IMG/VR virus record: IMGVR_UViG_3300025276_004711
Location: 1 to 33,849 of that record
Strand: one strand, 5' to 3'
Origin: a virus
DNA length: 33,849 nucleotides
Shown here: positions 13,720-25,794 of the stretch, piece after piece
Layout of the letters: the number at the start of each line of letters is the position of its first letter
Numbering within the stretch: position 1 is the first letter of the stretch
The notes under the pieces: model-generated
Databases searched by the model: none
Told to the model about the DNA's origin: nothing
The model's input: the letters and a program-made list of their open reading frames with translations, nothing else
Made by a program: the position numbers and the translations under genes

Positions 13720-14619
13720 TTATGCTGTAATCATTGGTGAAACAACAATCTCAACATCGTTGAAATAGATGTTGGTGTCGCCACCTTCAATCAACATGCG
13801 GCCAATCAACTTCTTCGCAGCGGCTTCATTATCAGGACCAACAACTAACTTAGTGGCGCGTGTACCAATTGGCGTACCGTCAACCTTCTTCATCTTCATC
13901 AGCAGCTTTTTAGCGGTTGCATAGTTGGCTTCGTTCAATACTGCTTTAGAACCAATCGCCAGTTGTGGGAAAGAGAAACCGACGTTACAACGGCCATCAA
14001 CACCCGCCGCATACTTGTTATTAAACCAAGTATATTCTTCGCTCGGGTTCATGTTTTTAAACACAAATGGGCGACGGTTTTGGAACACAATAGGTTTAAG
14101 TACCTTTGTGTCATCAATAATAAACCAAGGTTCACCTGTATCAGTTGCAGGGGTGCCGACTACGTTTGTGAAAACGCTGGCTGGCGTGGTTTCTAACGGA
14201 TGGTCAGTATCAAAGTAGTTTTGGCCGTCATAACATAAGGTCGTAAAACCAGCAGCTAATAGTGGGTAAGCTAAGGTATCTGGGAAGTAGGCAACCTGAT
14301 CACCATAGTTCTGTGCAATCACACCGTACTGACCAATTTGATCATCATCTACGTTATCGCGAGAAATGGAGATTGAGCTTTCGAACGTTTTGTTTTCGAT
14401 TGAGTAGCCACGCTTGCCCATATCTGCTAGCTGACGATCACCCGTCCACTCAGCAATACCAGGTAAGTCTTTTAACCAGCCGTAGTAGTTAGCAGCGCTA
14501 GCACTTGGCACTTCGGTAGCAATCATTGACCACTGCGGTTTTGCCGCAGATAAACCTTTTGTATAGGCCGCTGACATCGTGGCCTGTAGTGCTTCTAGCA
14601 CTTGTGCTTCAGTAGCCAT
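13720..14619 (-). CDS. T: Major capsid (head) protein gpT
   Basis: 299 aa, matching Mu-like gpT in size. The N-terminus is MATEAQVLEALQATMSAAYT; YYGWLKDLPGIAEWTGDRQL and FDTDHPLETTP are conserved in this family. The protein should adopt the HK97 capsid fold and form the icosahedral head. Its start overlaps the stop of protease gene I by one base, and it is followed by a strong hairpin, consistent with high expression needs. Confidence 0.93.
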   Translation of the reverse strand: MATEAQVLEALQATMSAAYTKGLSAAKPQWSMIATEVPSASAANYYGWLKDLPGIAEWTGDRQLADMGKRGYSIENKTFESSISISRDNVDDDQIGQYGVIAQNYGDQVAYFPDTLAYPLLAAGFTTLCYDGQNYFDTDHPLETTPASVFTNVVGTPATDTGEPWFIIDDTKVLKPIVFQNRRPFVFKNMNPSEEYTWFNNKYAAGVDGRCNVGFSFPQLAIGSKAVLNEANYATAKKLLMKMKKVDGTPIGTRATKLVVGPDNEAAAKKLIGRMLIEGGDTNIYFNDVEIVVSPMITA

Positions 14620-15122
14620 TACTTAGCTCCTACGTTAAGTTGTTTTTTGGCCGCTAGGTATTCTTCTTGAGAAACACCCATCTTGCGACACATCGCCAGC
14701 TCATGTTCTTCTAGTGCTGACTCATCGGTGGTTTTTGGCAGTTTCTTCTGTGCGTTGGTCGCAATAGCTGGAGCCGAACCCACGAAGTTGTTGAACTGCT
14801 CTATGCCACCTTCAGCGCGACACATGCCAACAAACATATCTTTGTTAGCGGGTGCGACCTTGCCAGCATCAATGGCGGTTTGTACCAGTGCATCAATCTC
14901 TTTATCAGCAATGGCCTTGAGCGCAGTCTCTGCCGAAGTAGCACGGTTAAGCGCGACTTGGTGCGTCTCAATCGGAATAAACTTGTTTAAGTCCGGTGTA
15001 TTGGTGCGGTTAAGCGCAATCTGTTCTGCTTGCTTAATTGCGTTAATGGCAACAACGGCTTGTTCTGCGGTCGCATCTTCGGCAAGGCCAAGCAGATCAG
15101 TTAAAAGCTTTGGCAGCTTCAT
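14619..15122 (-). CDS. Z: Scaffold protein gpZ, from internal start in gpI
   Basis: 167 aa, in frame with gpI from Met153 (MKLPKLLTDLLGLAEDATAEQ). AGAGGA seven bases before this ATG is a strong ribosome site inside the gene. Mu also makes its scaffold Z from the 3-prime half of I. The sequence is mainly helical and charged, as expected of a scaffold that fills the prohead core and is later degraded. Confidence 0.75.
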   Translation of the reverse strand: MKLPKLLTDLLGLAEDATAEQAVVAINAIKQAEQIALNRTNTPDLNKFIPIETHQVALNRATSAETALKAIADKEIDALVQTAIDAGKVAPANKDMFVGMCRAEGGIEQFNNFVGSAPAIATNAQKKLPKTTDESALEEHELAMCRKMGVSQEEYLAAKKQLNVGAK

Positions 15123-15578
15123 TGGGTCATCCTCTTTTCTGTTAAGGGCGGGTACATCTAAATTGGGACTATTCGTTAGGCCAGCACTTTCAACGCCATA
15201 GATAACGCCTGTCTCTGCATTGTGTGAAAATGCAGGTGAGTAAAAGGCGTATTTCTTTTCCTCAATCATTTCGCGGCCATCGCCATTCCATTCAACATAA
15301 CCCCAAATTTCACCCGCGCGATTTTCTACTTTAGTAATCCAACCATAAGCAGGGGCAGGTTCGCCATTTGGCGCTTTGAGATGTGTTGAGTGCTCAACAT
15401 CGAAGGGGCGTTTTTTGCTAAAGCTGGCGACGACAGCATCAGGATTAGGGTTCATCCATGAACGGCCATCAATCCCTTGAAAGGTTCCAGAGGGGATCAT
15501 GGGTAGCCAAATGCCAGTAGCATTGTCTTCCATGGCCATCATGTTGAAGCAAAGCGCGGTGAGGGCTTTTACTGTCAT
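14619..15578 (-). CDS. I: Prohead protease gpI
   Basis: 319 aa, the Mu-like_Pro family. The N-terminal ~145 residues are the protease domain, with PFDVEHSTHLKAPNG carrying the likely catalytic His63, and EKKYAFYSPAFSHNAETG carrying the likely Ser114. The C-terminal half is the scaffold region that is also made separately (see gpZ). The start has GGAG eight bases upstream, and that site can base-pair with the leader described at 15583-15664. The enzyme should cut the scaffold and possibly the capsid during head maturation. The active-site residues are my reading, not tested. Confidence 0.9.
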   Translation of the reverse strand: MTVKALTALCFNMMAMEDNATGIWLPMIPSGTFQGIDGRSWMNPNPDAVVASFSKKRPFDVEHSTHLKAPNGEPAPAYGWITKVENRAGEIWGYVEWNGDGREMIEEKKYAFYSPAFSHNAETGVIYGVESAGLTNSPNLDVPALNRKEDDPMKLPKLLTDLLGLAEDATAEQAVVAINAIKQAEQIALNRTNTPDLNKFIPIETHQVALNRATSAETALKAIADKEIDALVQTAIDAGKVAPANKDMFVGMCRAEGGIEQFNNFVGSAPAIATNAQKKLPKTTDESALEEHELAMCRKMGVSQEEYLAAKKQLNVGAK

Positions 15579-15582
15579 GGGG

Positions 15583-15664
15583 TGAACTCCGGTTAAGAAT
15601 TACATATCAACCTCCTAATCGTGGTTGGTATGGATAATCTAATATTGATTAACAACGGAGTTCA
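15583..15664 (-). promoter_or_regulatory. Structured leader with AUG-UAA start-stop before gpI
   Basis: In minus-strand RNA, UGAACUCCG (15664-15656) can pair with CGGAGUUCA (15591-15583), which holds the gpI ribosome site. Inside this stem lies a second hairpin: AUACCAACC (15631-15623) with GGUUGAUAU (15612-15604), one mismatch. A perfect AGGAGG sits in the inner loop/stem edge, five bases before AUG (15605-15603) that is followed at once by UAA. Mu has a late promoter at the corresponding site upstream of I, so transcription of the head genes likely begins near here. Translation control of gpI is an inference. Confidence 0.55.
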
Positions 15665-15670
15665 GCATGC

Positions 15671-15707
15671 AAAAAAAAAGCAACCGACGATAAATAACGT
15701 CGGTTGC
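15671..15707 (-). terminator. Strong intrinsic terminator after the accessory pair
   Basis: GCAACCGACG (15680-15689) and CGTCGGTTGC (15698-15707) form a perfect 10-bp stem with an eight-base loop. On the minus strand it is followed by nine T residues (15679-15671). On the plus strand a less perfect T-rich stretch follows. This separates the accessory genes from the gpI leader. Confidence 0.9.
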
Positions 15708-15738
15708 TCTAATTTGAGTTTTATTTTTTGTGACTAAA

Positions 15739-16260
15739 TTAGCTATATAAGTTGGCTTTAAACCTCTCATATCTGCCCATATGGATTTTGTTTTCATCTT
15801 CTAAATCATAAACGGTCACTAATTCGTTATTACAATGATCCATCAACTCTTTAATAATCGGTGGCTCTTCTACTTCTATAGCAATTCGCTTCGCCGTCAA
15901 CGATTTTTGTTCATAATCGTAAATGAAATCCCGCTCTGATAGTTCAAGCTCTAATTGTAAATATTTTTGCCTTAAAGAGGCATGTAGTGTGGTTTTTGAT
16001 TTAGAGTCTATCACTAGCTCTAACGTTTGTATTAAAGCTACTGCACAGGCTAACCATTTCGCCCAACCATTATCATTTTGATAAAAAGTAGCAAACGCTG
16101 CGGAGCTCATAACAAGTGATAAAGCCGTGACAAACTTGCCAAAACGGGCATAACAATTTTGCATGTGCATGTGATAGCGCACACCTAGTTGTGTATTCCA
16201 TAATAACTTCCAATGACGGTTGCAATCATCATCAGATGGTATTTGTTTTGTGTCAGTCAT
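15739..16260 (-). CDS. Two-TM protein resembling SLATT effectors (accessory)
   Basis: 173 aa. After a polar N-terminus with a helix (HWKLLWNTQLGVRYHMHMQN) come two membrane helices, about residues 43-60 and 67-84, separated by a short polar turn (QNDNGWAK). A long charged cytoplasmic helix follows (LRQKYLQLELELSERD) and then a mixed C-terminal domain. This layout resembles SLATT proteins, the two-TM effectors of nucleotide-signalling defence systems, but I cannot confirm the family. It is eight bases downstream of a proline-rich gene and followed by a strong terminator, so the two are a unit. Roles in superinfection exclusion or phage-phage competition are inferences. It is not needed for Mu growth as far as known relatives show. 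Confidence 0.7.
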   Translation of the reverse strand: MTDTKQIPSDDDCNRHWKLLWNTQLGVRYHMHMQNCYARFGKFVTALSLVMSSAAFATFYQNDNGWAKWLACAVALIQTLELVIDSKSKTTLHASLRQKYLQLELELSERDFIYDYEQKSLTAKRIAIEVEEPPIIKELMDHCNNELVTVYDLEDENKIHMGRYERFKANLYS

Positions 16261-16268
16261 GTAGCCCC

Positions 16269-16433
16269 TTATTTTTTTACGGGTGGCCTTGGTGGTGTAG
16301 CTGCACTTTGTGAAATAGTATTGGGATTATTACTAGCCTTATCAGCGTGATCATATACAGGTGTTCGGCCTTCTTGACTAGGCTGTCTCTGATTATTTGG
16401 TTTAGGTTGAGGAGGATTGTTTTTATTTTCCAT
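16269..16433 (-). CDS. Small proline-rich protein, partner of the two-TM gene
   Basis: 54 aa starting MENKNNPPQPKPNNQRQP and ending ATPPRPPVKK. It is rich in Pro, Asn and Gln and has no membrane segment; it is probably disordered. The frame is open further upstream to a TTG, but the ATG at 16433 is the better start; AGAGA lies nine bases before it. I do not recognise it. It sits first in the cassette, with the two-TM gene eight bases downstream, so it may regulate or tether that protein. Confidence 0.65.
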   Translation of the reverse strand: MENKNNPPQPKPNNQRQPSQEGRTPVYDHADKASNNPNTISQSAATPPRPPVKK

Positions 16434-16500
16434 ATTGTAAATATCTCTTGATGTAATTAAAAATTTAAAGTTTGTACTCAAAGACTACCCTAAAAATTAT

Positions 16501-16530
16501 GGTTGGCAAGCGTTCAAACGCAAGCCAACC
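16501..16530 (-). terminator. Hairpin terminator after gpF
   Basis: GGTTGGC-aa-GCG is repeated inverted as CGC-aa-GCCAACC around a six-base loop (16501-16530). On the minus strand ATAATTTTTAG follows. It ends the packaging/portal transcript and leaves the next two accessory genes needing their own promoter in the roughly 70 bases before 16433, where only weak elements are seen (TTGAGT, then AT-rich). Confidence 0.75.
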
Positions 16531-16623
16531 TAAAACATCCAGCACAACCTAGTTTAAACCCTGTTTAAATCTTCTCACAGGCGTTTAAACTTTTTTGCGA
16601 GTAACTTTGTAGCCATCAACTAG

Positions 16624-23481: not shown

Positions 23482-23524
23482 AAAAGCACAACCGATTAAT
23501 AAAATATAATCTGATTGTGCTTTT
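23482..23524. terminator. Bidirectional hairpin between moron and endolysin
   Basis: GCACAACCGATTA (23486-23498) pairs with TAATCTGATTGTGC (23507-23520) with one bulge and one G-U pair. It is flanked by AAAA and TTTT on both sides, as in two-way terminators. Its minus-strand T run touches the endolysin ATG. Mu has the late promoter Plys at this place, so the site may also mark the beginning of the late transcript. Confidence 0.7.
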
Positions 23525-23562
23525 TATAGAGAGGGGGGATTAATTAACGCGGGTTGTTCTGT

Positions 23563-24029: not shown

Positions 24030-24461
24030 TTAAAACAATTCCGGTTGTCTATTCTTGGTATCACGCTTGCGCATCTTAGCAATAACCCGATAAATATGCT
24101 GCATACTCTTGTCGTACTTTCGCGATAACTCCTCAACATTATCGCCCTTAAACTCATGCCAAATAGACAGATTCATGATCTCAGATTCTAGCTGACGGCC
24201 ACGGGGCAAGTACAGCTGCACGCCACCGAACTCACGACAGATACGATTCAACAAGGCGATAGCGATTCGAGTATCAGCGTCGTGAGTTTCCAGCTCATGC
24301 TTAAACATGGCATACATTTGCCGCATTGCTTCAGGCCATCGCTGTGACTCTTCATCATCGGCTATGCGCTCAACATCATCAAGACTGACATTGTCATAAC
24401 CAAAAAAGTCGCCGTTCTCTTCGTTCGCTGCATTATGTATATGATTTGTTGATTGAGTCAT
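24030..24461 (-). CDS. mor: Mor/C-family middle-late transcription activator
   Basis: 143 aa. The GGVQLYLPRGRQLESE segment is the conserved centre of the Mor family, followed by the helix-turn-helix NVEELSRKYDKSMQHIYRVI (about 107-126). Mu has two such proteins, Mor and C; here only one is seen, so it probably does both jobs, turning on the late promoters. The frame opens further upstream to 24554, but ATG 24461 has AAGGTGG close by and gives the usual length (Mu Mor 129 aa, C 140 aa). Confidence 0.9.
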   Translation of the reverse strand: MTQSTNHIHNAANEENGDFFGYDNVSLDDVERIADDEESQRWPEAMRQMYAMFKHELETHDADTRIAIALLNRICREFGGVQLYLPRGRQLESEIMNLSIWHEFKGDNVEELSRKYDKSMQHIYRVIAKMRKRDTKNRQPELF

Positions 24462-24495
24462 CGCCGCCACCTTTGTGCTATCAACAGATAGATAG

Positions 24496-24524
24496 AAACA
24501 CACCCCGCATGGCGAGGTGTGTTT
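24496..24524 (-). promoter_or_regulatory. Dyad at the start of the mor transcript
   Basis: AAACACACC (24496-24504) and GGTGTGTTT (24516-24524) are exactly inverted around an 11-base centre, which also contains CGC/GCG. It begins directly after the -10 hexamer of the promoter below, so it either folds in the mor 5-prime leader or serves as an operator. A terminator for the early transcript is possible, but no T run follows on the minus strand. Confidence 0.55.
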
Positions 24525-24559
24525 AGTATAAGGCACAGATGATCCCATGGTCATGGGAT
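24525..24559 (-). promoter_or_regulatory. mor promoter with operator-like dyad on the -35 element
   Basis: On the minus strand, TGACCA (24553-24548), a 17-base spacer and TATACT (24530-24525) form a plausible sigma-70 promoter. The 18-bp dyad ATCCCATG-ac-CATGGGAT (24542-24559) is centred on the -35 hexamer. This suggests regulation by a dimeric protein bound there. Confidence 0.6.
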
Positions 24560-25703: not shown

Positions 25704-25754
25704 AATTACTTTCCCCTTGGCTGCTCATCAGTGCTCGGCTACCACGCCGAACAG

Positions 25755-25785
25755 ACAAGCAAGGTGCAAACTGCGCCTTGCTTGT
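25755..25785 (-). terminator. 10-bp hairpin after the 25795 gene
   Basis: ACAAGCAAGG (25755-25764) and CCTTGCTTGT (25776-25785) are exact inverses around 11 bases. No T run follows on the minus strand. It lies in the 91-base gap of the early operon, so it may lower downstream early expression or protect the upstream mRNA end. Confidence 0.5.
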
Positions 25786-25794
25786 TTCGCTTAA

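Follow-up and report, generated by a model that had tools for sequence, protein, structure and literature searches.

Conserved AUG-stop element and promoter-overlapping hairpin in the leader of the gpI head protease gene of Mu-like phages

The leader of the head maturation protease gene gpI in the window (the whole stretch of viral DNA analyzed, 33,849 nucleotides) contains a start codon followed immediately by a stop codon, preceded by a near-perfect Shine-Dalgarno (SD) sequence. Comparison with related phages indicates that this start-stop is under strong selection, and translational control at the element is well supported by its conservation. The same leader can fold into an outer stem that covers the gpI SD and reaches into a predicted late promoter, PI. 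We give roughly even chances to the reading that the PI leader carries two devices, a silencer of read-through RNA and a start-stop that limits the protease. The phage is Mu-like, and its closest match in the collections was Shewanella phage vB_SspM_MuM16-2. The features of the region are compiled in Table 1.

Table 1. Features of the gpI leader and the late promoter region (window coordinates).
Feature	Position	Strand	Basis or remark
gpI, Mu-like head maturation protease	14619-15578	-	Pfam PF10123 Mu-like_Pro, E 1.4e-46; PHROG 328
3' arm of outer stem, CGGAGTTCA	15583-15591	-	Holds the gpI SD GGAG
gpI SD, GGAG	15590-15587	-	Within the 3' arm of the outer stem
Start-stop AUG-UAA	15600-15605 (AUG 15605-15603, UAA 15602-15600)	-	AUG and stop in all carriers
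Start-stop SD, AGGAGG	15611-15616	-	GGAG invariant in 24 thinned leaders, fifth-base G in 23/24
5' arm of inner stem, CATACCAACC	15623-15632	-	Pairs with GGUUG-N-UAUG
5' arm of outer stem, TGAACTCCG	15656-15664	-	Between predicted -10 and +1; covaries with the gpI SD arm
Predicted PI transcription start	15656 +/- 2 nt	-	By the spacing of Mu lys, I, and P
Predicted -10 box of PI, CATGCT	15664-15669	-	CATNNT or TAATCT there in nearly all thinned leaders
Hairpin and U-run, AGCAACCGACG-TTATTTAT-CGTCGGTTGCT-T8	15671-15708	-	Sequence, fold
Predicted C-box of PI, CGTTATTT	15692-15699	-	TTATTT begins exactly 28 nt upstream of the -10 box

The element AGGAGG-TTGAT-AUG-UAA occupies positions 15616 to 15600 of the minus strand, with the five-nucleotide spacer TTGAT between AGGAGG and the AUG. 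The UAA is separated by 21 nt from the gpI AUG at 15578, which places the two start codons in the same frame. The first-pass annotation had described AGGAGG, five bases, an AUG, and an immediate UAA upstream of gpI, and this description was correct. The 17-mer occurs once in the window, where 0.22 occurrences would be expected even with up to three mismatches. When both strands were scanned, it was the only AUG-stop behind a strong SD (0.19 expected). Its SD forms an anti-SD duplex of -11.4 kcal/mol. The decisive evidence that the element stands above chance is its conservation in relatives.

In a first pass, an exact-motif search revealed the motif ahead of gpI in about twenty phages. As a control for bias, gpI genes were gathered by protein similarity from viral contigs and genomes, and the DNA upstream of them was then read; the search for relatives was centered on two host genomes reached via the loci. 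The resulting 125 unique gpI leaders were examined for the pattern GGAGG-5nt-AUG with the next triplet left open. This pattern was found in 52 leaders, and the triplet following the AUG was a stop in 52/52 (TAA 28, TGA 20, and TAG 4) and a sense codon in none; one further leader carries GGAGA in place of GGAGG. Carriers grouped into a single clade (60 rows, support 98) when a tree was built from 141 gpI proteins. The history of the element on this tree consisted of one gain, no losses, and at least ten stop-to-stop switches, a count that recombination between the leader and gpI could inflate. If single-base changes struck the codon freely, the probability of all ten ending on stops would be 3e-7 to 3e-3, depending on the transition bias. 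Since the three stops interchange, with at least ten switches and no sense codon, the comparison shows immediate termination itself to be the selected trait, and the free identity of the stop makes reliance on a single release factor less likely. The conservation in relatives that had been proposed as a check was thus borne out, with all three stops represented and all gpI leaders of one clade carrying an AUG-stop.

The SD, the spacer length (5 nt in all carriers), the AUG, and the first T of the stop were nearly fixed, whereas the bases around the start-stop were poorly conserved. Two subclades differed in the gap between the stop and the gpI AUG, which was 10-12 nt in the first and 19-24 nt in the second (lengths of 10, 11, 12, 19, 20, 21, 22, and 24 nt, covering all frames), and the gpI SD GGAG was retained behind the stop in every carrier. 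The mean anti-SD duplex was -11.9 kcal/mol for the start-stop SD versus -6.0 kcal/mol for the gpI SD, about a twofold difference. As a separate observation, the string AGGAGGTTGTTATGTAA is also present in two unrelated phage contigs, L023 (near 5027) and L029 (near 9480; both strand-read offsets), where it leads into an HTH repressor-like gene that opens with ATGGAA, forming AUG-UAA-AUG.

Both stems claimed in the first-pass annotation, an outer one of 9 bp over the gpI SD and an inner one with 8 of 9 pairs, are present. The outer stem TGAACTCCG/CGGAGTTCA forms 9/9 pairs, and the inner stem ATACCAACC/GGTTGATAT forms 8/9 pairs with one C-A mismatch; the CAACC of the inner 5' arm recurs in most relatives. 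The leader fold had an energy of -22.9 kcal/mol (z -2.8), with 4 of 200 shuffles as good. The covariation of the outer stem was examined across relatives with the arms anchored on homology and not on pairing. The covariation score was 0.215 compared to 0.117 for shuffled alignments and was reached by 0/500 shuffles, and 14 cells were changed on both sides versus 7.9 expected (1/500 shuffles); these values are indicative because the shuffles do not remove relatedness. Paired cells amounted to 81%, compared to 35-43% when the partner was slid, and own arms paired better than swapped arms in the long-gap clade (p = 0.010) and borderline so in the short-gap clade (p = 0.052). The compensatory changes that had been suggested as a check were therefore found, and on this comparative evidence the outer stem is real.

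The region upstream resembles a C-dependent late promoter (PI) followed by its leader, with putative activation by the Mor/C protein of the phage. In the four annotated late promoters of Mu (lys, I, P, and mom), the C-box lies exactly 28 nt before the -10 box by our own count, and the window has the matching layout CGTTATTT-28-CATGCT. Comparison of the leaders revealed CGT(T/C)ATT-28-CATNNT or TAATCT in nearly all of the thinned set, a result that is partly circular because the C-box also counted toward the score in the search for the -10 box. The same 28-nt spacing was found in the lys promoters of the window and two relatives, while the most distant leaders (L234, L253, and L254) do not fit it. 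Two earlier candidates were dropped, TTAACTCC as C-box and CATAYC as -10 box, on the grounds that the distance of TTAACTCC to the start-stop varies (26-48 nt) and that the CGTTATT-28-CATNNT layout fits the Mu spacing exactly. Oligonucleotides designed around the mapped starts of Mu lys, I, and P (PMC4461284) put +1 at the eighth to ninth nucleotide after the hexamer, again by our own count. From this spacing we infer a start at about 15656; therefore, TGAACTCC is predicted not to be transcribed from PI. In Mu, the same count predicts a start at the C or A of GCTCACAAACC.

A single Mor-family late activator gene (24030-24554, minus strand, PHROG 532) was noticed in the window, as in the annotations of the relatives, whereas Mu has two (Mor and C). 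Just upstream of the leader, the hairpin with a U-run at 15671-15708, kept in Vibrio and Shewanella relatives, is a probable intrinsic terminator judged by its fold, and its loop overlaps the predicted C-box. The lysozyme-like gene is directly preceded in four phages by a conserved inverted repeat AGCACAATC...GGTTGTGCTTTT (23482-23530, minus strand), whose 5' arm holds a predicted -10 box, CACAAT, 28 nt after TTAATTA; this repeat shows the same hairpin-on-promoter plan and may serve as a terminator for read-through. Between F and gpI, the window contains two extra genes (15739-16260 and 16269-16481, both minus strand). The former matches PHROG 11791, of unassigned function in PHROG, and is shared with the near-identical contig L009; apart from this case, both genes are absent from the other relatives compared. 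After F, a hairpin GGTTGGCTTGCG...CGCTTGCCAACC with a T-run (16500-16540, minus strand), kept in Shewanella relatives, is probably the terminator of the F operon. An Rfam search found no family match in the gpI leader; its only match in the window was a type II hammerhead ribozyme between early or middle genes (25715-25792, minus strand, 61 bits, E 1.6e-10).

The 5' arm of the outer stem ends at the predicted +1, so this stem should form only in read-through RNA. Such RNA, entering from upstream, would hold both arms and hide the gpI ribosome site, while late mRNA started at PI, predicted from the Mu spacing to be without the 5' strand, would expose the gpI SD. In the models, the gpI SD of the long-gap clade, to which the window belongs, had an unpaired probability of 0.04 in the read-through RNA versus 0.38 in the PI RNA; in the short-gap clade the modeled hairpin hides the gpI AUG and not the gpI SD. 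In relatives without the start-stop, including Mu, the 5' arm of the hairpin begins right after the -10 box, and its 3' arm covers or touches the gpI ribosome-binding site (RBS). The first-pass annotation had proposed a nested switch on the working mRNA, in which a ribosome held at the start-stop opens or closes the outer stem and tunes the protease against the scaffold. The folding of the two stems and the covariation of the outer one speak for such a switch. Against it, the predicted -10 and +1 flank the outer 5' arm in this clade and the relatives examined, which means that PI mRNA should not carry the stem, and we regard this switch as unlikely. The outer stem is better explained as silencing read-through RNA, whose presence in vivo is presumed. 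Translational control at the start-stop thus stands from the earlier proposal, through the conservation of the AUG-stop. Of the proposed protease-scaffold tuning, the outer-stem switch on late mRNA falls away, while a possible internal start for the scaffold (Z) was found in gpI, an ATG at codon 153 behind GAGG.

We favor an explanation in which the start-stop was a later addition, placed inside the enlarged loop of the hairpin and within the predicted late mRNA. On this mRNA, the near-perfect SD and AUG-stop would attract initiating ribosomes to a point 10-24 nt ahead of the gpI start, and ribosomes should prefer the start-stop because its anti-SD pairing is twice that of gpI. A ribosome starting there would terminate at once, covering or abutting the gpI ribosome site, so that gpI would be initiated only when the site is clear or via reinitiation, and the protease would be limited relative to the internally started scaffold. 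By keeping the leader occupied, the start-stop probably restricts the amount of protease made, with reinitiation accounting for part of gpI translation, and such a limiter would favor the scaffold from its possible codon-153 start. The direction and size of this effect on gpI are inferred. A point against the favored explanation is that the gpI GGAG was kept, although a weaker SD could lower gpI more simply; its retention is as compatible with ribosome recapture, which would be a positive role, as with a limiter.

Such a positive role is possible, and nearly as likely as dosage limitation: ribosomes loaded at the start-stop would be relayed to gpI, reinitiating 10-24 nt downstream and raising its translation. 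The gap from stop to gpI AUG lies within reinitiation distance in both subclades (10-12 or 19-24 nt), the gpI SD persists behind the stop in every carrier, and E. coli is documented to use termination-reinitiation where start and stop codons overlap (PMC9841429). However, a stronger gpI SD would be a simpler route to the same effect, and gpI cannot be occupied by a second ribosome while one sits on the start-stop. It is improbable that the element instead guards the late mRNA, with a ribosome on a strong SD near the 5' end shielding the transcript and the stop barring elongation. Ribosome-bound SDs stabilize some Bacillus mRNAs, and the near-perfect SD here lies within about 26-51 nt of the predicted 5' end; yet an SD without an AUG-stop would suffice for this, whereas the AUG and stop are among the most conserved parts and their spacing to gpI is bounded.

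Two further readings were rejected. It is very improbable that TTGNTATGTAA serves transcription, as an extended -10 element of a promoter (TGnTATNNN), and is no translation signal. The TGN-TAT resembles such an element with N free, but the next codon varies only among the three stops, and the variants L099 (TCGCCATGTAA) and L215 (TTGCCATGTAA) lose TGnTAT and keep the ATG-stop. In addition, the T at the end of the hexamer is missing, transcription in the short-gap clade would begin past the gpI SD, and a better promoter, PI, lies upstream. Least probable of all is a leaky stop, by which readthrough of AUG-UAA would yield an N-terminally extended gpI; the shared frame in the window would allow it, but the frame is not conserved among relatives, whose gaps of 10-24 nt take several lengths, and the identity of the stop is free.

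Very short frames acting on nearby translation include the lambda bar minigenes, which have at least one sense codon after the AUG. The axe-txe minigene is likewise a very short reading frame affecting nearby translation (PMC8708949) and differs from the phage element in the same way, by at least one sense codon. Start-stop sites proper were detected in E. coli by ribosome profiling, with candidates in Campylobacter (PMC11955535 and its reference 20). They share with the phage element a start followed by a stop at once or after one codon and a proposed regulatory role, but they are reported mainly inside genes and out of frame, whereas the phage element belongs to a 5' leader, where it comes with a near-perfect SD and is conserved throughout a phage clade. 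The AUG-stop of Arabidopsis NIP5;1 (Tanaka 2016, as cited in PMC5972666) is similarly a minimal leader uORF with reinitiation at the main ORF, but, as that citation presents it, it involves eukaryotic scanning and boron-dependent stalling and no SD. For the hairpin, the closest parallel is T4 gene e (also soc, 49, and I-TevI), with an inhibitory leader hairpin and a late promoter in its 5' strand (PMC3014915). There too, the RBS is hidden in longer transcripts and the late mRNA is without the 5' strand of the hairpin; here, in contrast, the promoter is of the Mu C type, the gene encodes a head protease, a start-stop sits in the loop, and the arrangement is predicted from sequence. Mu itself shares the C-box, the 28-nt spacing, the -10 box, and the hairpin over the gpI RBS, but its gene I leader is about 24 nt long and has no start-stop.

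Start-stop sites and late-promoter hairpins are thus each known in kind (PMC11955535, PMC5972666, and PMC3014915). Neither a phage leader with a conserved start-stop nor a gene e plan in Mu-like phages turned up in the literature searched, which was open-access only and incomplete. Start-stop sites are known from bacterial ribosome profiling, and none conserved as an element was found in the searchable papers. That the conserved AUG-stop is a dedicated regulator in these phages, setting the dose of the capsid protease by retaining or recycling ribosomes on the late leader, on top of a shared silencer hairpin, seems to us about as likely as not. The clade that carries it offers a clean natural system for studying how a ribosome that starts and stops without elongation affects the gene that follows. 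The presence of a hairpin over the late promoter suggests that Mu and other Mu-like phages block premature capsid protease much as T4 blocks premature lysozyme, and such gene-e-like silencing is testable in Mu with existing genetics.
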